Shown piece after piece: positions 11,623 to 19,767 of a DNA stretch of 64,000 nt. The stretch comes from Tunturibacter psychrotolerans. GTDB lineage: Bacteria > Acidobacteriota > Terriglobia > Terriglobales > Acidobacteriaceae. The DNA lies in NCBI RefSeq assembly GCF_040359615.1, contig NZ_CP132942.1:2666001-2730000 (forward strand), written 5' to 3'. Numbering within the stretch: the first letter of the stretch is position 1; each line of letters starts with the position of its first letter. The position numbers and the translations under genes are program-made. The notes under the pieces were generated by a model. That model was not told the origin of the DNA. It was given only the letters and a program-made list of their open reading frames with translations, and did no database searches.

Positions 11623-12504
11623 TCAGCTTTCCTGCGGTTTGCAGAACCAACCCAGCTCCGAGGCGTGGGCGAAGTATTCCTGAATCTTCGCCGCCTGATC
11701 TTCGGGTGAGAGGGAGCTTCCGGTGAAAGCGAGTTCAAGAGCTTCGCCGAGCAGAGTGCCGCTTTGAAGGGCGGAGAGAAGGCGGAAAGCTTCCGGATCT
11801 ATTCGCCGGTAGTAGACGGAGTTGTCGTAGCGATGGACTGCAAGGTGGATCTGAGAGCGGCGCATCTGGGGAAGAGGTGTTCGTTTAGCTTGCTTGCGCT
11901 CGGTCACGGCGTTGCTCATGATGTCGCTGGGCGCCGTCTGGCGATGCACGGCGAGGACGAGTTCGTCGACGGGGTAGCGGAGGTCGAGCAGTTGCAAGTG
12001 AGGTTGGAGGTGGAGTTTCGACGCGCCACCGAGGTCCCCGAAGTCGGCGGCAGTGAGGGGCGGGAGGTCGGCTCCGTCGAAGGCTTCGACGTAAGCCCAT
12101 TCGAGGCGGGCGACGTCGAGGAGGAGTTTGTGACGACGCGGCGAGAACTCGGGGTGTGCTTCGAGCCACGTTGGCAGCTTTGAGCCGAGATTGCGCAGGG
12201 TGAAGGAGGTTGATGGATTCTCGCGAAGGTAGGCCAGGATCATGGCGTCAAACTTCTTCGCTCCGAGGACAGCGCCGACCGCGGGGAAATCTTCTGAGAC
12301 CGCTCCGATGACGCGGAACCAGTATTGGCGGTTGTAGATTTCGAGGCGGTTGAAGGAGGAGAGGCGATCGTTGGGCTTGATGTAGCTGTTGGCAAGTTCA
12401 TCGGTCGAGCGCCCATCGGAGGATTGCGGCTGCATTTGGAAGTCCGATGTGAGGGGACGCATCACGTCTTCGGCCATACGACGTTGCAGTTCGAGGAGGT
12501 TCAT
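11623..12504 (-). CDS. bufC: BufC-like DUF2063 protein (putative MNIO partner)
   Basis: A 293-residue protein starting MNLLELQRRMAEDVMRPL, the typical N-terminus of DUF2063 ('putative DNA-binding domain', PF09836), with YNRQYWFRVIGAVSEDFPAV and HLAVHRYDNSVYYRRID following. In bufferin and other multinuclear iron oxygenase (MNIO) RiPP loci this protein is the partner that presents the precursor peptide to the DUF692 enzyme; the DNA-binding name is historical. The ATG at 12504 overlaps the bufB stop as ATGA, so the two are translationally coupled. An in-frame extension to 12633 runs inside bufB and is not used. Confidence 0.9.
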   Translation of the reverse strand: MNLLELQRRMAEDVMRPLTSDFQMQPQSSDGRSTDELANSYIKPNDRLSSFNRLEIYNRQYWFRVIGAVSEDFPAVGAVLGAKKFDAMILAYLRENPSTSFTLRNLGSKLPTWLEAHPEFSPRRHKLLLDVARLEWAYVEAFDGADLPPLTAADFGDLGGASKLHLQPHLQLLDLRYPVDELVLAVHRQTAPSDIMSNAVTERKQAKRTPLPQMRRSQIHLAVHRYDNSVYYRRIDPEAFRLLSALQSGTLLGEALELAFTGSSLSPEDQAAKIQEYFAHASELGWFCKPQES

Positions 12505-13388
12505 TGGTGGACGACCTCTCGAAGATCTTCTGCTGTCTGGTTCAGGGGAAGAGGTTCGGTTGGCGTGAGATATTGGGTCGCCTTGAGGGCTTCGGAGTGA
12601 ACTTCGTCGAAGGAGGGGATGTTGTCGTCCCATTCGAGGAGGGTTGCGGTGGGACCTATGCGTTCAATGGCTCGAGCGTAGAGATGCCATACGGGATCGA
12701 GGACGGGATGATCGTGGGTGTCGAGGATGTATTTTTCAAACTTGGAGTGACCGGCGATGTGAATCTGCGCGACGCGCTCTGCGGGAACGCTGTTGACATA
12801 GTCGAAGGGATTGAATCCGTGATTCTGCGACGAGACATAGATATTGTTGACGTCGAGCAGGATGCCGCAGTCGGCGGCTTCGACGACTTCGTTGAGAAAC
12901 TCCCACTCGGTCATCTGAGACTCGTGGAATTCAGCGTAGCTGCTGACGTTCTCGACGGCGATGGGGATCTCGAGGTAGTCCTGTACTTCGCGAATACGGG
13001 CCGCTGTAGCCTTCACGGCTTCGAAGGTGTAGGGCATGGGGAGAAGATCGTGGGTGTAACGGCCGTCGACGCTGCCCCAGCAGAGATGGTCGGAGAGCCA
13101 GGGGGTCTTGGTGCGGCGTGTGAGGGTCTTGAGGCGCTTGAGATGTTCGCGGTCTGCGGGTTGGACGGAGCCAAAGTACATGGAGACGCCGTGCTGGACG
13201 ACGCGATAACGTTCGAGGATCTGGTCGAGGACTTTGAGCGCTCGTCCGCCGTCGACCATGTAGTTTTCGGAGATGATTTCGAACCAGTCGACGACGGGTT
13301 TTTCGGCGAAGATGTGGTCGTAGTGCGGGACGCGAAGGCCGATCCCTACGCCGTAGTCGCTGAATCCGTTGAAGCGATTGGCTGGCAT
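12501..13388 (-). CDS. bufB: BufB-like DUF692 multinuclear iron oxygenase
   Basis: A 295-residue DUF692 (MNIO) enzyme with a TIM-barrel fold. In characterised systems it oxidises precursor cysteines with a mixed-valent iron centre; in bufferins it turns them into thiooxazole-type copper ligands. Metal-ligand motifs are present in order: GIGLRVPHYDHI, WFEIISENY, QHGVSMYFGS, WLSDHLCWG, VENVSSY, LDVNNIYVSSQNH, QIHIAGHS and DTHDHPV. ATG 13388 has AAGGGGAG just upstream; an upstream in-frame start at 13445 would run into the hairpin region. It sits 78 bases after bufA and is coupled to bufC. The catalytic role is known from the family; the target Cys residues are inferred from bufA. Confidence 0.93.
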   Translation of the reverse strand: MPANRFNGFSDYGVGIGLRVPHYDHIFAEKPVVDWFEIISENYMVDGGRALKVLDQILERYRVVQHGVSMYFGSVQPADREHLKRLKTLTRRTKTPWLSDHLCWGSVDGRYTHDLLPMPYTFEAVKATAARIREVQDYLEIPIAVENVSSYAEFHESQMTEWEFLNEVVEAADCGILLDVNNIYVSSQNHGFNPFDYVNSVPAERVAQIHIAGHSKFEKYILDTHDHPVLDPVWHLYARAIERIGPTATLLEWDDNIPSFDEVHSEALKATQYLTPTEPLPLNQTAEDLREVVHQ

Positions 13389-13419
13389 GACTCCCCTTTT
13401 GTTAAAAGATGAAGACAAC

Positions 13420-13453
13420 CTGGAGGCTTGAACGATGAAGACCAAGCCTCCAG
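13420..13453 (-). terminator. Intercistronic hairpin between bufA and bufB
   Basis: A perfect 11-bp inverted repeat, 13420-13430 against 13443-13453, with a 12-nt loop, lies 13 bases after the bufA stop. On the minus strand it is followed by a moderately T-rich stretch (a TTTT lies about 15 bases on), not a clean poly-U run. It may be an attenuating terminator or an RNase-blocking stem that keeps bufA mRNA in excess over bufBC. Confidence 0.6.
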
Positions 13454-13466
13454 ACAGGGGAGGTGT

Positions 13467-13751
13467 TTAGGCGAGCGAGGGCTTGGAGCCGTCGGTGGCG
13501 CATCCGCCCTTGCCTTTGCAGTCGTTCTTGCCGGGGTGCTTGCCGCCGCCCTGGCCTTTACAGTCGTTCTTGCCCTTGCAGGAGTGCTTCGGAAGATCCG
13601 GCTTGTCCTGGGCGATGAGAACGCCAGCATGCGCGGTGGTGGTGGGGGTGTTGTTGGCCGGCGCGGTCTGAGCGTTCATACGGACAGCGGTACCGCCCAA
13701 CAGACCTGCAAACGCTGCGGCCAGAGCGAGAGATTGTGCTGAATTCTTCAT
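13467..13751 (-). CDS. bufA: Bufferin-type Cys-rich metallophore precursor peptide
   Basis: A 94-residue secreted precursor. Residues 1-28 form a signal peptide (MKNSAQS, an Ala/Leu/Gly core, ending MNAQ), followed by a Thr/Ala/Pro spacer and a Lys/Gly-rich tail with exactly four cysteines (58, 64, 78, 84). The Cys fall in two copies of CKGK-x-x-C, each C-x5-C. This fits the bufferin class (BufA2-like rather than DUF2282, in my judgement), in which MNIO-modified Cys bind copper in the periplasm. ATG 13751 has AGGAAAGG 9 bases upstream; an in-frame start at 13781 would spoil the signal peptide. It is the first gene of bufABC, behind an ECF-type promoter. Confidence 0.88.
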   Translation of the reverse strand: MKNSAQSLALAAAFAGLLGGTAVRMNAQTAPANNTPTTTAHAGVLIAQDKPDLPKHSCKGKNDCKGQGGGKHPGKNDCKGKGGCATDGSKPSLA

Positions 13752-13906
13752 TGAGATGAGCCTTTCCTGGTTGAGCCGCACGCGAAAGAACGTGCCGGAC
13801 GTGGATGATGGCTACGCAGATCGTAGCAATTAGTTAACGGCGAGGGCCCGTGGTTCGGATTCAATTCGCAACGAAGATGATTCGCCGGATTTTCCTTACC
13901 GCTGCA

Positions 13907-13935
13907 TTCGACTTCGCCAAGACACAAAGGTTACA
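13907..13935 (-). promoter_or_regulatory. Predicted ECF sigma promoter for bufABC
   Basis: On the minus strand TGTAACCTTT (13935 down to 13926) is followed, 16 bases after GTAACC, by GTCGAA (13912 to 13907). The same layout occurs in mirror orientation at 13968-13996. GTAACC resembles the -35 element I recall for the Caulobacter SigF regulon, which contains bufferin genes. Transcription would start near 13900, leaving a leader of about 150 nt before bufA. Confidence 0.6.
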
Positions 13936-13967
13936 AGGACGTGGAACATCGGAAGCCTATCACTGTC

Positions 13968-13996
13968 TGTAACCTTTTGGCACGGAGCCACTCAAA
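13968..13996 (+). promoter_or_regulatory. Predicted ECF sigma promoter for redoxin-doxX-sigma operon
   Basis: TGTAACCTTT at 13968-13977, then CTCAAA at 13991-13996, exactly 16 bases after GTAACC. It is the mirror partner of the bufABC promoter and shares 10 of 10 bases in the -35 block and the same spacing. Transcription would start near 14003, about 60 bases before the redoxin GTG. Confidence 0.6.
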
Positions 13997-14062
13997 CCGG
14001 GACATGATGTTCAAATCTGAACACTACGCGCCGGATCATGGCGTGTTGACTGGAGTTGAAGA

Positions 14063-14641
14063 GTGATCGCCAGGAAATTCTGGGTATTAGCTTTAGGGAT
14101 TTTGATGATTGGTTTTTCGTCGTCAGTAACGGCAGAGGTGCCCGAAATCGGACAGAAGGCGCCGGATTTTAGGCTGTCAACACCGGATGGTCACCCTGTG
14201 AGGCTGTCGGAATTTACTGCGAAGGGAACAGTGGTGTTGGTCGTGCTTCGGGGGTTTCCTGGCTATCAGTGTCCGTATTGCCAGAAGCAGGTACATGACT
14301 TTCTGTTGAACGGCGATAAGTTTGCGGCGGCCGGGGCGGAGGTTCTTCTGGTCTATCCTGGACCGCCTGCGGATCTCGATCAGCATGCGAAGGAGTTCCT
14401 GGCGAAGCAAAATCCGCTGCCTGCTAATGTTCACCTTGTCGTCGACCCTGACTACGCATTTACGAATCAGTATGGGCTGCGCTGGGATGCCCCGCATGAA
14501 ACTGCCTATCCTTCAACCTTCCTGATCGACGGACAGGGCGCTGTTTTTTTTAGGAAGGTCAGTCGCGAGCATGGCGATCGAACGACGGCGGCAGATGTTC
14601 TCGGTGAGCTTGAGCGCGACAAGGCAGCTCACGCGCATTAG
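14063..14641 (+). CDS. Secreted redoxin / AhpC-TSA family protein
   Basis: A 192-residue thioredoxin-fold protein with an N-terminal signal peptide (hydrophobic residues about 6-22, then TAE). The domain starts IGQKAPDFRLSTPDG and carries the active-site motif CPYC at C70 and C73 after LRGFPGYQ. It is a periplasmic peroxiredoxin or thiol-disulfide reductase of the bacterioferritin-comigratory/AhpC-TSA group. Translation starts at GTG 14063, with GGAG 8 bases upstream. It is the first gene of redoxin-doxX-sigma-anti-sigma. Beside a bufferin locus it may keep precursor cysteines reduced before or after export, or protect against metal-driven oxidation; that role is inference. Confidence 0.85.
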   Translation: MIARKFWVLALGILMIGFSSSVTAEVPEIGQKAPDFRLSTPDGHPVRLSEFTAKGTVVLVVLRGFPGYQCPYCQKQVHDFLLNGDKFAAAGAEVLLVYPGPPADLDQHAKEFLAKQNPLPANVHLVVDPDYAFTNQYGLRWDAPHETAYPSTFLIDGQGAVFFRKVSREHGDRTTAADVLGELERDKAAHAH

Positions 14642-14800
14642 TTCAGTGTGGCGGGCGGTGTAACCAATTCGGTCGCCGGGATTCTAAGTATGTGCAGGCC
14701 CCACAGGCTCCTGGTCGAGTCTGCGTCAGTGCGGGGCCTGCTTAAAGACTGCATCGTTTTGATTGCGCTACCCATAGGATTGGAGTCAAGAGGATCTGTG

Positions 14801-15274
14801 ATGAAAAAACTGCTTGAGGTGTATGAAAGATTTGCGGTGCTGGTCTCTTATCTTCAGTCTCCGTTCCTTCTGGTGGTGCGCCTCTACTGGGGATGGCAGC
14901 TTATGCAGAGCGGTTGGGGGAAGCTGCATCATCTGGATAAGGTGACCGACTTCTTTGCGAGCCTGAATCTTCCGGCACCTGGTGTGACGGCTCATTTCGT
15001 CTCGGGATTGGAGTTTGTTGGTGGGCTGTTGCTGATTCTGGGGCTTGGCTCGCGGCTGATCGGGCTGATTCTTTCCGTGAATATGCTGGTGGCATATTGG
15101 ACGGCGGATCGAGACGCGCTGGTTGCCGTGTTCTCAGATCCAGGCAAGTTTTACAACGCCGATCCGTATACGTTTCTGTTTGCATCTGCGATGGTTCTGG
15201 TGTTCGGCGCAGGGGTGTTCTCCGTAGATGCGTTGTTGAAGAAGCGGTATCGAGGATGGATCGAGAAGCAATGA
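14801..15274 (+). CDS. DoxX family inner-membrane protein
   Basis: A 157-residue DoxX-family protein with four hydrophobic segments (about residues 17-37, 62-85, 86-105 and 123-142). It contains the family signatures RLYWGWQLMQSGWGKL and GLEFVGGLLLILGLGSR. ATG 14801 has AGAGGA about 7 bases upstream; the open frame extends to 14648 but lacks a plausible start there. It ends in an ATGA overlap with the sigma gene. DoxX proteins are regular members of bufferin operons (named BufD there) and may form a redox complex linking quinones to cysteine chemistry. Here it lies on the divergent arm rather than behind bufC. Confidence 0.88.
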   Translation: MKKLLEVYERFAVLVSYLQSPFLLVVRLYWGWQLMQSGWGKLHHLDKVTDFFASLNLPAPGVTAHFVSGLEFVGGLLLILGLGSRLIGLILSVNMLVAYWTADRDALVAVFSDPGKFYNADPYTFLFASAMVLVFGAGVFSVDALLKKRYRGWIEKQ

Positions 15275-15891
15275 ACGCAAGCATCGAGAACAGGAATGAA
15301 GCTCAAATGATCGCCTCCATACTTGCGGGCAATACGCATGAGTTTCATACCCTGATCCAGCCATACGAGCGGAGCGTTTATAGCATGGCGCTGTCGATGC
15401 TCCAAAACGAGGCGGATGCAGAGGATGCCGCGCAGGAGGCGTTTCTCAAGGCGTTTCGCAATCTGGACAAGTTTCGGGGCGAGGCGAAGTTCAGCACGTG
15501 GCTGATCAGCATTACGCTGAACGAGGCCCGGAGCCGGCTACGGCACAAGAAGACTGCAAAGACGGATTCGCTGGATGAGCTAACCGAGGGCGGGCATGTG
15601 TCGCCGGCGCTGCTGCGGGATTGGCGGGAGATTCCCTCCGAGGCGCTGGAGCGGCAGGAGGTGCGGCTGCTATTGCAGGACGCAATCACCGATCTCCCAG
15701 TGATCTATCGCGAGGTTTTTGTGCTGCGCGATATGGAGTATTTGAGCGTCAACCAATCGGCAGAGGCGCTGGGCATCAGTGTTGCGGCGGCAAAGGTGCG
15801 GCTGCATCGTGCGAGGCTGATGTTGCAGAAGCGGCTCGCACCGGAGTTGAAACGGGTGATGCCGAAGCGGAGGTGGTTGCCATGGTTCTAG
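15271..15891 (+). CDS. ECF RNA polymerase sigma factor (sigma-70 family)
   Basis: A 206-residue ECF sigma factor. Region 2 covers about residues 30-95 (FHTLIQPYERSVYSMALSML, DAEDAAQEAFLKAFRNL and FSTWLISITLNEARSRLR). Region 4 covers about 140-190 (ITDLPVIYREVFVLRDMEYLS, then the helix-turn-helix SAEALGISVAAAKVRLHRAR). The ATG at 15271 overlaps the doxX stop as ATGA; ATG 15256 in frame is an alternative. Its 3' end overlaps the anti-sigma gene by 10 bases. It most likely transcribes its own operon and bufABC from the two mirrored promoters at 13907-13996, a positive autoregulatory loop held by the anti-sigma. Confidence 0.93.
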   Translation: MNASIENRNEAQMIASILAGNTHEFHTLIQPYERSVYSMALSMLQNEADAEDAAQEAFLKAFRNLDKFRGEAKFSTWLISITLNEARSRLRHKKTAKTDSLDELTEGGHVSPALLRDWREIPSEALERQEVRLLLQDAITDLPVIYREVFVLRDMEYLSVNQSAEALGISVAAAKVRLHRARLMLQKRLAPELKRVMPKRRWLPWF

Positions 15892-16160
15892 AGTGCAAGC
15901 ATGTGTGGGAGCACATCTCCGGCTATCTTGATGGAAATCTGGATGCGGCAGTACTGGAAGAGGTGCAGAAGCATCTTGAACACTGCGAGATTTGCTCAGC
16001 GATTCTGGATTCGACGCGCAATATTTTGATTCTGACGGCGGATGAGCGTGTCTTCGAACTTCCGCTGGGTTTTAGCGAGCGGCTCCACGCGAGGCTGGAG
16101 GCGGAGATGCAGGGCTTTTCGTACGGAGCCGCCGCCGCGGGGGACGAGGGTGATACCTAG
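15882..16160 (+). CDS. Soluble zinc-finger anti-sigma factor
   Basis: A 92-residue protein with the zf-HC2 / ZAS signature H31-x3-C35-x2-C38 (in HLEHCEIC) plus an upstream C5, and no transmembrane helix, so it is cytoplasmic. ZAS anti-sigmas hold the sigma factor until the zinc site is oxidised or metallated. It overlaps the sigma gene by 10 bases, which couples their translation. Its stop codon lies in a CTAG palindrome that also carries the stop of the convergent gene. A metal- or thiol-sensing switch controlling bufferin production is the natural reading; the inducing signal is not visible in sequence. Confidence 0.85.
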   Translation: MVLECKHVWEHISGYLDGNLDAAVLEEVQKHLEHCEICSAILDSTRNILILTADERVFELPLGFSERLHARLEAEMQGFSYGAAAAGDEGDT

Positions 16161-16606
16161 GGGACGCGGTGAATCATGGAGTGAGTGATCCATTCGGCGG
16201 CCACAAGGATGAGAGTGAGGATGGCGAGCGCGATCTGGAGGAACTCCGAACGCCGTTGGGAGGGGGTGGCGGGCTGGGTGCGCCATTGCGAGGAGGGCCG
16301 GGCGCGCAGTGAGCGAATCCGCCAGATGACGTAAAGATTGATGAGGGAGCCGAGGGTCGCGGCGATCATCATGGGGATTCGGATTGCGTCCTGGTGAAAC
16401 CCGACGGCGGGAGCGTGGACGCCGAAGGTCGCGACGGCCAGGGCACTGAGTCCAATGGCAACACGAACCCCGCTGAGGGCGATGACGGCCGTGCAGGCGC
16501 TCTGCAGAACGATGAAGACGAAGCTGGTGGCGGTGAGGAGCCAGGTTCGTCTGTTACCTGGAGCGGTAGTCGCGGGGCGCGTCGGGGAGCTTGTCTGAAG
16601 GGCCAT
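16157..16606 (-). CDS. Hypothetical membrane protein
   Basis: A 149-residue protein with four hydrophobic stretches (about residues 21-43, 46-65, 76-97 and 122-143) and a Thr/Pro-rich N-terminus. ATG 16606 has GAGGAA 5 bases upstream. It converges on the anti-sigma gene and the two share stop-codon bases. I do not recognise the family. It resembles small integral proteins of unknown role common in acidobacteria, and nothing ties it to the sigma operon beyond position. Confidence 0.7.
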   Translation of the reverse strand: MALQTSSPTRPATTAPGNRRTWLLTATSFVFIVLQSACTAVIALSGVRVAIGLSALAVATFGVHAPAVGFHQDAIRIPMMIAATLGSLINLYVIWRIRSLRARPSSQWRTQPATPSQRRSEFLQIALAILTLILVAAEWITHSMIHRVP

Positions 16607-16657: not shown

Positions 16658-17428
16658 TCACCACAGACGATTTAAAGGGAAGACTAGCTTTAGAGGGAAG
16701 ACTAGCTGTTTGATGGGATAGTCGGGCGACTCGAGTGCGATGGCTGCGGCTGCCTCGATGCCCAAGGTCAAGTCGCTGACGAAGAAGAGCTTTCCTTGAT
16801 CATCTGTCGATTCGCGCATAAGGATGGGGTGTTGATGGAGTGACTCGAACGATACTTCGAAGGAGGCGAGTGAAGCGATGAGGCCACGGCCGTCTGCTTT
16901 GAGAACCGCTTCCTTGCGAGTCCAGTAGCGATAGAAGGTTTTGTGGCGGGTCTGAGGGTCGGCGATCGCTTCCAGAGAACTGGTTTCGGTTTCTGTGAAG
17001 TTGTGTTTGGCGACGTCCATGATGTCAGTCGGTCGGTCGAAGTACTCTACGTCGACCCCAACGGGGCCGTTACGGCTCAGTACGATGAGGATTGTGTCCT
17101 TGGAATGAGCTACGTTGAATGCAACGCGGTGTCCGTTGAGGTTTGGGGATTCAGGTTTTCCGTGAACTCCAGTTGCGATCGCGATGGAAAGAGGATTGAG
17201 CCCTGACACGTTTCCGAGAAGGGTTCTCAGGCAGGCCCGTCCGACTGAGAAATGAATTTGCGCCTGCTCTAGCCTGTAACGGCTTGCGTGGAGTTGTTCG
17301 GAGGGGGAGAGGTGTGTGGTGAGATAGTTGTGCAGACCCGTGGCACCAGCGAGATCGATCCGCCAGAGTTGGACCTCGTCGGCCTCGAGTGGCGGAAGGA
17401 TGTCGATCTGTTTCCAGTCACTCAGCAT
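16658..17428 (-). CDS. 4'-phosphopantetheinyl transferase (Sfp type)
   Basis: Transfers phosphopantetheine from CoA to carrier-protein serines. The 256-residue length is usual for Sfp-type PPTases. Motifs are present in order: FNVAHSKD (about residue 104), VGVDVEYFDR (about 122-131, with the Mg-binding acidic pair) and FYRYWTRKEAVLKADGRGL (about 165-183, with the W-KEA helix). It diverges from the NRPS genes across 335 bases and should activate the five carrier domains they encode. Its last 12 residues, LVFPLKLVFPLN, come from a recent 18-bp tandem duplication, which leaves the catalytic core intact. Confidence 0.93.
   Translation of the reverse strand: MLSDWKQIDILPPLEADEVQLWRIDLAGATGLHNYLTTHLSPSEQLHASRYRLEQAQIHFSVGRACLRTLLGNVSGLNPLSIAIATGVHGKPESPNLNGHRVAFNVAHSKDTILIVLSRNGPVGVDVEYFDRPTDIMDVAKHNFTETETSSLEAIADPQTRHKTFYRYWTRKEAVLKADGRGLIASLASFEVSFESLHQHPILMRESTDDQGKLFFVSDLTLGIEAAAAIALESPDYPIKQLVFPLKLVFPLNRLW
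16671..16706. repeat. 18-bp tandem duplication
   Basis: Two adjacent 18-base units, 16671-16688 and 16689-16706, differ at one base. They lie near the 3' end of the PPTase gene and double the peptide LVFPLK. A replication-slippage origin is likely. Confidence 0.85.
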
Positions 17429-17763
17429 AAGAGATACGGTGGCTTCGTAAGGTGTATTGCAATCATAATCAGTTGCTCAGGTACTTTAGTTCTGCAGCAG
17501 GCTGAGGACACGATGAAATCTTGGGAAATCTACAACTTTCGGGTATCTATGTGAGCAACAGACTTCATCGATTTTTCGAATTGTGCGTACAATTAGGCAA
17601 CATGAACGAGTTGACTTCGAGCGCATCCGACGGTACCTTTCGCTGCAGCTGCATCCTTTAAGACGTTGAGCTGCGTAAGCGAAATCTGCGATCTTGTAGC
17701 CAACACGGAGAGCACGCTGAGTCAATTTTGTTCTGCTGCGTTTTTTGATCTGCGTGGGGCACG
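17429..17763. promoter_or_regulatory. Divergent promoter region between PPTase and NRPS genes
   Basis: 335 bases without a convincing gene; it must hold the promoters for the PPTase (minus) and the three-gene NRPS/PKS operon (plus). I see no clear operator dyad. Two minimal open frames exist, 13 codons at 17513 and 19 codons at 17602-17661, with weak ribosome sites. Confidence 0.5.
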
Positions 17764-19767
17764 ATGGAGAACGATGAATATGTTAAGAATTCGGCCACTG
17801 AGGGCGGGCGACTGATCGGTCGTTCCCAGCCCCCGGAGACTCCAGGGAAGAACGGCTTCATCGGGAGCACTCTGGACACGATCGTGAGTGTCTTTGAGCG
17901 AGTGGCTGCGGCAAAATCGGATCGGGTCGCGATCGTTTGTGGAGAGGTTTGCTGGACTTACGGTGAGCTAAACGCAAAGTCGAACCAACTTGCTGAACGG
18001 TTACGAGAACTTGGCGTTCGAACGGACTCCTTCGTTGCAATTTATCTGGACCGCTCGCCCGAGATGCTGGTGGGGATACTTGGCATCTTGAAGGCTGGCG
18101 GCGCCTACCTTCCCATAGACTTTGGGTATCCGGCGACCAGAGTGTTGGAGATGCTGGAGGATGCGAGGCCGGCGGCTATATTGACCGCAGCAACTCTTGC
18201 GTCGGAGTTATCTGAAAAGTTTTCCGCGTTGTCTATTCCGGTTGTCGAGATGGACAGCGTTGATGCGCTAACGGAGTCTTCGTGGCTGAAGGATTCACCG
18301 CGTGCACGCGCCAGCGAGGATTTAGCGTACCTGATGTACACCTCGGGCTCGACTGGCAAGCCGAAGGGTGTGATGGTCACGCATCGGAACGTGCTTCGTC
18401 TTCTAGAGCAGACGGAGGCGTGGTTTCACTTCGGAGTGGACGATGTCTGGACGATGTTTCACTCCATCGCATTTGATTTTTCAGTCTGGGAGATATGGGG
18501 ACCGCTGCTGACTGGAGGAAGGCTCGTGATCGTGCCTTTTGCGGTGAGCCGTTCGCCGCGTGAGTTTTACGAGCTTCTCTCGAGGGAGCGGGTGACGGTG
18601 CTTAATCAGACTCCGTCCGCATTCTTCATGCTGATTCAGGTGGAGCAGGATAGTACTCCTCTACCGCTATCCCTGCGTCTGGTGATCTTTGGGGGAGAGG
18701 CTTTGCAGTATCGCAAGCTCGCTCCGTGGTTCGAGCGTCACGGGGACACGGCGCCGCAGCTGGTGAACATGTATGGGATCACGGAGACGACTGTGCATGT
18801 GACATATCGCCCCATTGTCGCGGCGGAGGCGGAGTTGGTTCAGGAGAGCCTGATCGGGGTGCCTATTCCCGATATGCAGCTTTACCTTCTGGATGACGCG
18901 AAGAAGCCGGTGCGAGAGGGCGAGGTGGGTGAGCTTTATGTGGGCGGTGGCGGAGTTTCGCGCGGTTATCTGAATCGTCCGCAGTTGAATGCAGAGCGCT
19001 TTATTCCTGATCCTTTTGCGAGGGCGGCTGGCGCGAGGCTTTATCGCACTGGCGATCTTGCGCGGGTTCGGCCTGATGGTGAGATGGTGTATCTGGGCCG
19101 CAACGATAGCCAGGTGAAGATAAACGGTTTTCGCATCGAACTGGGCGAGGTTGAGGCGGCGTTGGCCGAGGTTCCGGGAGTGCAGCAATCTTGCGTGGTG
19201 GCGCATACGGATAAAACTGGAACGCAGCGGCTGGCAGCTTATTTTGTTGCGAGTCCGGGTGTTGAATTGTCTGCGCGTACTCTCGGGCAGTTTTTTATCG
19301 CAAGGATGCCTGCGCACATGAGGCCTTCGTCCTACACGCCTCTGAAGAAAGTTCCGCTCACGGTTAACGGCAAGCTGGACGCAGCAGCATTGCCTGCTCC
19401 TTCAATCGGCTCCGGCAACGTTGCTCCGATGGATTCCGCACCACAGTCGTTGTCTGAAACAGAGGAGCAGGTGTCGCGAGTGTTTATGGATGTTCTCGAT
19501 CTGCGGGCGATTGGCCTGGATGACAACTTCTTCGATTGCGGGGGAACATCCCTGCTGCTTATCAGCGCTCATCTGCGATTGCAGGCGCACTTCGAGAGGC
19601 TGTTTCCCGTGACGTTGATGTTCGAGTGCCCGACGGTCCGGTCGCTGGCGAGGCGCCTTTCGGACAAGGGGTCTTCTGCATCAGAGAAAAGCGCAGTCCA
19701 GCAGCAGGCACAGAGGGCGAGAGGCGCGTTCGCGCGAGCTCGGGCAACGAAGGGTGTGGCGTCATGA
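17764..19767 (+). CDS. NRPS loading protein, A(Thr)-PCP
   Basis: A 667-residue nonribosomal peptide synthetase protein with an adenylation domain (about residues 35-540) and a peptidyl carrier domain (about 560-635, attachment Ser596 in GGTSLL). Core motifs seen: LKAGGAYLPID, YTSGSTGKPKGV, FDFSVWEIW, NMYGITETT, YRTGDLARVRPDG and VKINGFRIELGE. Read by eye, the ten pocket residues are D-F-W-N-I-G-M-V-H-K, the classical threonine code. There is no condensation domain, so it should start the chain. Its stop overlaps the next start as ATGA. The start at 17764 has GTGGGG 4 bases upstream. Confidence 0.93.
   Translation: MENDEYVKNSATEGGRLIGRSQPPETPGKNGFIGSTLDTIVSVFERVAAAKSDRVAIVCGEVCWTYGELNAKSNQLAERLRELGVRTDSFVAIYLDRSPEMLVGILGILKAGGAYLPIDFGYPATRVLEMLEDARPAAILTAATLASELSEKFSALSIPVVEMDSVDALTESSWLKDSPRARASEDLAYLMYTSGSTGKPKGVMVTHRNVLRLLEQTEAWFHFGVDDVWTMFHSIAFDFSVWEIWGPLLTGGRLVIVPFAVSRSPREFYELLSRERVTVLNQTPSAFFMLIQVEQDSTPLPLSLRLVIFGGEALQYRKLAPWFERHGDTAPQLVNMYGITETTVHVTYRPIVAAEAELVQESLIGVPIPDMQLYLLDDAKKPVREGEVGELYVGGGGVSRGYLNRPQLNAERFIPDPFARAAGARLYRTGDLARVRPDGEMVYLGRNDSQVKINGFRIELGEVEAALAEVPGVQQSCVVAHTDKTGTQRLAAYFVASPGVELSARTLGQFFIARMPAHMRPSSYTPLKKVPLTVNGKLDAAALPAPSIGSGNVAPMDSAPQSLSETEEQVSRVFMDVLDLRAIGLDDNFFDCGGTSLLLISAHLRLQAHFERLFPVTLMFECPTVRSLARRLSDKGSSASEKSAVQQQAQRARGAFARARATKGVAS

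Follow-up and report, generated by a model that had tools for sequence, protein, structure and literature searches.

In Caulobacter, the regulon of the extracytoplasmic function (ECF) sigma factor SigF includes DUF2282/DUF692 genes as well as DoxX and YedY (PMC3511200). NrsF accompanies the sigma genes in those published bufferin clusters that have them (PMC12452194, PMC3511200), and sigma and anti-sigma genes have been reported in Buf1 but not in Buf2 clusters (PMC12452194). In Haemophilus, the RpoE2-HrsE pair was termed ECF group 13 (PMC7907618). In the literature searched, including papers naming both DUF692 and acidobacteria, no published account of bufferin control in Acidobacteria was found. 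In the present study, we analyzed a 64-kb stretch of the genome of Tunturibacter psychrotolerans (hereafter, the window), which contains bufferin-type genes next to those for an ECF sigma factor and a zinc anti-sigma (ZAS) protein. With a probability of roughly 70%, this locus, of the Cys-Lys captophorin type, is an output of the ECF sigma factor held by the soluble ZAS protein. The sequence comparisons show the bufferin locus to be real, conserved and linked to the ECF/ZAS pair, and from them a promoter code and a regulon are predicted.

An earlier note, made from the letters of this DNA, had placed seven genes here. Reading frames, located by coordinates, and domain searches with Pfam and NCBIfam profiles and the cut-offs of the models found all seven at the positions it gave. 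The note had also tied the bufferin genes to their own ECF sigma and zinc anti-sigma; a common promoter motif and a linkage kept in several arrangements bear this out, and together they are stronger evidence for a sigma-controlled bufferin locus than the note had. The features are as follows.

11623..12504, minus strand: bufC, DUF2063 partner of the multinuclear non-heme iron-dependent oxidative (MNIO) enzyme (PME type 1); PF09836 58 bits, cut-off 27.2; 3' of bufB in relatives
12501..13388, minus strand: bufB, MNIO (DUF692) bufferin maturase; NF050167 355.7 bits, cut-off 310; PF05114 364.5 bits
13467..13751, minus strand: bufA, precursor with hydrophobic N-terminus, CKGKNDC..NDCKGKGGC core and four Cys; alternative GTG start at 13781
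13907..13934, minus strand: predicted ECF promoter of bufABC, GTAACC-N17-TCGAA; exact match, with aligned sites in relatives
13969..13996, plus strand: predicted ECF promoter of the redoxin gene, GTAACC-N17-TCAAA; exact match
14063..14641, plus strand: AhpC/TSA-type redoxin with CPYC (Cys70, Cys73) and GTG start; AhpC-TSA 83.3, Redoxin 75.6
14660..14687, plus strand: predicted ECF promoter of doxX-ecf-antisigma, GTAACC-N17-TCTAA; exact match
14801..15274, plus strand: doxX, HvfX-like membrane protein; PF07681 DoxX 73.1 bits
15271..15891, plus strand: ECF sigma factor, its start overlapping the doxX stop; Sigma70_r2 and r4_2 over cut-off
15882..16160, plus strand: predicted soluble ZAS-type anti-sigma, its start overlapping the ecf end; zf-HC2 41.3 bits, cut-off 22.2
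16157..16606, minus strand: unnamed helical, probably membrane protein of 149 amino acids, convergent with the anti-sigma gene and absent from the list of the earlier note

The redoxin, DoxX, ECF and anti-sigma proteins all score above their Pfam cut-offs. With the narrower models, bufC reached 43.7 bits for HvfC (NF050145, cut-off 142) and DoxX, which passes the general PF07681, 61.3 bits for HvfX (NF050144, cut-off 80). The redoxin is probably exported, as its hydrophobic N-terminus alone suggests.

Promoter motif and gene linkage

The motif GTAACC-N17-TCNAA has three exact matches in the 64 kb, on both strands of the gap between bufA and the redoxin gene and in the gap before doxX; 0.05 were expected, and three were reached in none of 100 shuffles. 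We infer that the ECF sigma factor recognizes promoters of this form. For comparison, the neighbourhoods of every place in other genomes with at least 70% BufB identity (36 in all) were fetched, and weaker ones were left out (bufB is matched in 45 of 120 family genomes, the own genome included). The earlier note held that its idea would fall if relatives did not keep the precursor beside bufB. All 37 neighbourhoods (the 36 fetched and the window) have bufB, and a recognisable bufA lies upstream of it in 36, in L050 at a distance of about 0.9 kb. This conservation is far above chance, and the idea thus withstands the check; no recognisable bufA was seen in L064, which is therefore outside the 36. 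In the 36 bufA upstream regions (window included), GTAACY-N-TC has the spacing N17 in 22, N18 in 5 and other spacings in 0-3, against an N17 background of 0.34 (shuffle mean) or 1.8% of random 300-mers. Close variants of the motif precede bufA in 27 of these loci.

A second survey started from the anti-sigma gene: titled genomes were scanned with the anti-sigma alignment, and the best 80 of 126 loci were taken, own-genome records possibly left out and some stretches cut by contig ends. The titles are all Acidobacteria or genera of that phylum, except for one metagenome-assembled genome (MAG) titled Rhodanobacteraceae. Top-ranked are strains of Edaphobacter lichenicola, 90% identical in the anti-sigma; this is presumably the species that bears the newer name Tunturiibacter lichenicola (family Acidobacteriaceae in the taxonomy). 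The form GTAACY-N17/18-TC precedes bufA in 34 of 42 cases and doxX heading the ecf operon in 30 of 30, and the controls gave 2/43 for bufB, 0/43 for bufC and 0/79 for the anti-sigma gene. In total, 58 matches were found versus 7 for a reversed -35. Of the 12 long operons that begin with bufA, 5 have the motif, and the other seven read GTTAC-N17-TC by eye; operons headed by ecf have it in 17 of 37. Enough upstream sequence for this scoring was present at 79 of the 80 heads. Of the nine redoxin relatives near the anti-sigma gene, seven are preceded by a site at no more than 250 nt and eight at no more than 300 nt.

All of the 80 loci contain ecf, 50 doxX, 43 bufB (one of them, in L116, a distant MNIO at 30%) and 42 bufA. 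The bufABC genes are divergent from doxX-ecf-antisigma in 18 loci (12 plain, 4 with the redoxin gene between, 2 with it after bufC), form a single run bufABC-doxX-ecf-antisigma in 12, and follow ecf-antisigma as bufABC-doxX in 7; ecf-antisigma stands alone in 25. The earlier note had called DoxX on the sigma arm unusual, which the 18 divergent and 12 single-run loci contradict. Its exact seven-gene layout recurs in 4 of the 80 loci. A redoxin gene between bufA and doxX is indeed uncommon (the same count of 4), although redoxin relatives lie near the anti-sigma gene in 9. Since the linkage recurs in several arrangements across these loci, we consider it, on this sequence comparison, to be old and reshuffled, and the placement of DoxX to be ordinary.

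One possible explanation of these neighbourhoods is descent, in which the bufferin and sigma genes are neighbours by history and a different sigma factor reads the motif. It would fit the motif found before bufA in 9 of 17 loci with no ecf detected nearby, five of the nine being on short contigs. However, in loci with full context the motif occurs in 17 of 18 with a local ecf and in 3 of 11 without (p = 0.0003, kinship uncorrected); left out of this count were the window, the short-contig loci L042, L055, L060, L062 and L065, and L066, which has the anti-sigma gene and in which ecf was not found. In two of the three motif-bearing genomes without a local ecf, an anti-sigma relative (78%, 56%) lies elsewhere in the genome, and in the third, 85% complete, none was found genome-wide. 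Four of the eight motif-less genomes have no anti-sigma relative above 30%, and the other four have relatives of 38-52%, two of them with an internal stop. The agreement of motif and ecf across loci is thus good, not perfect. The persistence of the linkage in at least four arrangements and the motif before the ecf operon itself, at all 30 doxX heads, also speak against mere descent, which we regard as very improbable; control of the bufferin genes by the adjoining sigma factor is preferred.

Some loci differ from these patterns. In L110-L163, from gp2 and other Acidobacteria MAGs, ecf-antisigma pairs occur where bufferin genes are missing, and many of these pairs also lack a strict motif match; other conserved genes adjoin them, some with export-like N-termini. 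A second bufferin locus in genome G119 (L067), with bufB matched over its first part only, a shortened bufC match and a full-length-looking sigma arm, is perhaps a decaying copy. In L032 (genome G072), ecf is matched in separate pieces, which suggests a broken gene, and the genome has a further anti-sigma relative at a different place. In the window itself, 16658-19767 holds what we take, from the translations, to be genes for a phosphopantetheinyl-transferase-like protein and for a protein with an adenylation domain; a peptide synthetase cluster may begin here.

Precursor peptide and its maturase

The bufA precursor matched no Pfam family at E <= 0.1. In the profile search that the earlier note had proposed, the nearest precursor model was indeed a bufferin one, BufA2 (NF050166), but the score was 18 bits against a cut-off of 60. 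In ten relatives, BufA2 was likewise the best NCBIfam model for every precursor and every score was under the cut-off, with 18-22 bits for two four-Cys precursors and 31-48 for the eight others. Buf1 membership was ruled out, because the precursor has no DUF2282 domain. Buf2/BufA2 precursors have six or twelve Cys, and the window precursor four. Among the 36 precursors compared, six Cys were counted in 26, four in six, five in three and seven in one, and the common core is CKGxNxCKGxGGC..NGCKGKNSCKGKGGC. By eye, the third and fourth Cys are missing alike in five four-Cys precursors (the window, L032, L033, L035 and L067). Because of this common loss and the six Cys of the majority, the four-Cys form is probably derived, its lineage having lost two Cys. 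The hydrophobic N-terminus of the precursor, with a maximal 19-residue hydropathy of 1.51, alone suggests that the peptide may be secreted.

The own genome holds one MNIO. By its NF050167 score the bufB product is a BufB-type MNIO, with the DUF2063 partner encoded 3' and the Cys-rich precursor gene just 5'. The motif EWDD (E252-W-D254-D255) was found in all 34 aligned BufB sequences. An Asp after the catalytic Asp has been reported for Cys-Lys MNIOs (PMC13097082), and the solved MNIO structure 3BWW has Phe at this position; the published residue number appears to map onto the EWDD motif of BufB. The locus thus combines the two marks of the Cys-Lys captophorin group, CKG motifs in the precursor and D254-D255 in the MNIO. 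BufBC may convert Cys of the precursor, probably to 5-thiooxazoles, and the mature bufferin peptide probably binds copper.

Anti-sigma factor, predicted regulon and signal

The earlier note was right to call the anti-sigma a zinc protein: C5, H31, C35 and C38 are invariant in all 20 aligned sequences, zf-HC2 scores over its cut-off, and the ligand set C5-X25-H31-X3-C35-X2-C38 agrees with the ZAS pattern C/H-X23-26-H-X3-C-X2-C. The hydropathy profile has no hydrophobic segment of the membrane kind, and the protein is, by these sequence features, a soluble ZAS protein and not NrsF. A profile search did not find NrsF in the own genome, so that it was ruled out as a missing anti-sigma; the same search gave matches in 5 of the 120 family genomes, 4 of them over the cut-off. 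Membership of the window ECF in ECF16 was ruled out at 25% identity to an NrsF-linked ECF of a family member. Compared with the ECF16 promoter (T/C)GTAAC-N17-CGAA, the motif here has the same -35, and its downstream part is TCNAA after N17. One family genome (G056), which also has a ZAS-type bufferin locus, contains an NrsF-ECF pair with GTAACC-N16-CGAA sites (L078).

The earlier note had described the locus as a self-contained switch. This is not supported, because the own genome has the motif, or a relaxed form of it, in front of genes unlinked to the locus as well. At a cytochrome b561 gene, which is adjoined on its 3' side by an Oxidored_molyb relative (69% and 46%, two pieces), a site starts 76 nt upstream of the start codon; at another Oxidored_molyb gene, a relaxed site, with TCCCA instead of TCNAA, starts 65 nt upstream. 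Since the motif or its relaxed form precedes both molybdopterin oxidoreductase loci detected with one query in this genome, the sequences point to a regulon, probably, rather than a self-contained locus. In Terriglobus roseus, four of the five sites of the pattern TGTAACC-N17-TCNMW cluster at ecf-antisigma, where they precede ecf, cytochrome b561-Oxidored_molyb, DUF1223 and redoxin genes; this locus (L125, 5758-10520) has ecf-antisigma and these motif-preceded genes without bufABC in the stretch. Elsewhere the motif precedes DUF1223 genes, lactonase-like genes, some small genes that we presume to be ABM-like (Pfam assigned no family to one such protein), and, in one E. lichenicola, a gene for an MsrB-domain (SelR) protein with an export-like N-terminus. 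Both the own genome and Granulicella S190 (L174, L198) also have a motif-preceded ATP-grasp (RimK-like) gene, with diverged spacers.

Three of the ten exact sites of the own genome lie in the window locus. Other own-genome sites, such as those before S4/FtsJ methyltransferase and EamA transporter genes, were taken as likely chance. Genome-wide counts were dropped as regulon evidence in the own genome, because they equal those of reversed-pattern controls (10 sites versus 11 for the exact pattern, 7 versus 7 for a second, relaxed one). Ten relatives summed gave 85 sites of the relaxed pattern versus 57 for the control.

These observations can be joined in a mechanism. The signal would be a thiol-reactive stress in or near the envelope, caused by an oxidant or by copper or another thiophilic metal, and the zinc site of the anti-sigma would be oxidised or lose its zinc, which would release the ECF sigma factor. 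The latter would then read GTAACC-N17-TCNAA before bufABC, the redoxin gene and doxX-ecf-antisigma, the last giving positive feedback together with fresh anti-sigma, as well as the sites before the unlinked molybdopterin oxidoreductase genes. BufBC would modify the precursor Cys before export, probably to 5-thiooxazoles, and the periplasmic peptide would bind copper, while DoxX, the redoxin and the molybdenum enzymes may handle oxidised thiols or methionines.

As for the nature of the signal, the switch may mainly be an RsrA-like sensor of oxidants or disulfides for envelope repair, with a bufferin arm that keeps copper from making radicals; this is a serious candidate, held at somewhat less than even odds. 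The distal zinc ligand is a Cys as in RsrA, and the RsrA model TIGR03988 is the best-scoring NCBIfam model for the anti-sigma, although its 33.5 bits are below the cut-off of 62.5. Furthermore, in Haemophilus both an MNIO-DoxX cluster and MsrAB are under the control of the ZAS pair RpoE2-HrsE during HOCl exposure (PMC7907618). However, RslA, a redox-sensitive ZAS, has His as its distal ligand (PMC2877774), so that this residue alone does not decide. The somewhat less favoured possibility is a sensor mainly of copper or another thiophilic metal, in which Cu(I) displaces the zinc of the anti-sigma and the switch serves chiefly to make the bufferin, as with the copper-related bufferins of proteobacteria. 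Bufferins have been reported to chelate excess copper (PMC12452194), and in Caulobacter the SigF regulon responds to chromium and cadmium but not to generators of reactive oxygen species (PMC3511200). On the other hand, the wider motif-bearing set, with molybdopterin oxidoreductases, an MsrB-domain protein and redoxins, resembles oxidative repair more than metal export.

The 149-amino-acid protein beside the anti-sigma gene has relatives in 74 of the 80 anti-sigma loci and in 34 of the 120 family genomes, in at least 26 of these 34 (by eye) within 2 kb of the anti-sigma match. It gave no Pfam match at E <= 0.01. Among 3315 candidates, 3096 are homologues at E <= 0.001, and none of the 120 matches listed has a Pfam domain; the source name 'cytochrome b561' on one relative was not supported by Pfam. 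An alignment of 63 relatives and the window protein, drawn from 68 relatives of fitting length plus the window, has Q35, C38, H71, R76, M79, E138 and H142 among the residues invariant in the 64 sequences. The AlphaFold model consists of three long helices (pLDDT 80.1, pTM only 0.51), and Foldseek found no PDB match to it at E <= 0.001; from these long hydrophobic helices, the protein probably lies in the membrane. Because the motif is mostly missing upstream of its gene (2 of 72 regions), the gene was not counted as an output, and this scarcity would suit a constant sensor better. The protein might thus be a third regulatory part, a membrane sensor of copper or of the redox state that signals to the soluble ZAS anti-sigma, a speculative and rather unlikely proposal. 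If true, it would be a relay of membrane protein, soluble ZAS and ECF, for which the literature examined has no counterpart in bufferin control. This large uncharacterised family is a candidate partner of the switch.

Several findings weigh against control of the bufferin locus by the sigma factor. The precursor is under the cut-off of every precursor model, and 37 of the 80 anti-sigma loci lack bufB within the stretch examined, which tells against a copper sensor as well. Strict matches to the motif are missing from 20 of the 37 ecf-headed operons; in a first sorting of the operon heads across the 80 loci, the spacing was N15 in 10, beside N17 in 36 and N18 in 10. In the bufA sample, both the motif and a local ecf are lacking for 8 of 36 upstream regions, and in L041, where ecf is present, the only site has two mismatches. 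By count the own genome shows no enrichment of the motif, and many of the 85 relaxed sites in the ten relatives precede nothing recurrent. Finally, the relatives are not independent observations.

Comparison with known systems

Streptomyces SigR-RsrA shares with the present pair a soluble ZAS with a distal Cys ligand, while the window anti-sigma stays below the RsrA model cut-off. The targets and the promoter motif of SigR-RsrA also differ from those found here.

Closer in function are Haemophilus RpoE2-HrsE and Neisseria SigE, which have a cytoplasmic ZAS of the same C/H-X23-26-H-X3-C-X2-C pattern (PMC7907618, PMC2954202) and control an MNIO-DUF2063-DoxX cluster together with periplasmic methionine-sulfoxide repair (MsrAB). 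For N. gonorrhoeae, the genes listed as linked to DUF692, DUF2063 and DoxX include one for an ECF sigma factor (PMC2954202). The control of an MNIO-DoxX cluster and methionine-sulfoxide repair by a ZAS/ECF pair is therefore already known, and because of these precedents the present locus is a variant, not a new kind. The Haemophilus and Neisseria precursor is taken as the EGKCG (Lys-Cys) type, in contrast to the Cys-Lys precursor here, and by its locus tags the Haemophilus cluster lies in another gene region. In addition, the present system has the redoxin, the molybdopterin oxidoreductases and the 149-amino-acid protein.

With the BufA2/Buf2 (Cys-Lys captophorin) clusters, the locus shares the precursor-MNIO-DUF2063-DoxX core, the CKG motifs and the Asp specificity residue of the MNIO (PMC12452194, PMC13097082), but its precursor has four of the six Cys and is below the BufA2 cut-off. 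Caulobacter SigF-NrsF and Sinorhizobium RpoE7 (ECF16) are similar in their autoregulated ECF control of DUF692-DUF2063 genes and in the -35 GTAAC (PMC3511200, PMC8315932, PMC6180224); in the RpoE7 system, the DUF692-DUF2063 genes are also divergent from the sigma genes, and the SigF regulon also has DoxX and YedY (PMC3511200). However, the ECF16 anti-sigma NrsF is a six-helix membrane protein and not a soluble ZAS, the -10 and the spacing differ, and the Caulobacter precursors are of the DUF2282 (Buf1) kind. New here are the promoter-like motif, the predicted regulon, the soluble ZAS anti-sigma and the 149-amino-acid companion. They offer a promoter code that can be tested, and a predicted regulon, for the control of copper peptides in a phylum described as abundant in many soils. 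Published alphaproteobacterial control proceeds via NrsF, and here a different ECF and a soluble zinc anti-sigma are apparently wired to similar outputs (bufferin, DoxX and molybdopterin oxidoreductase); this suggests that such a combination may have been assembled more than once.

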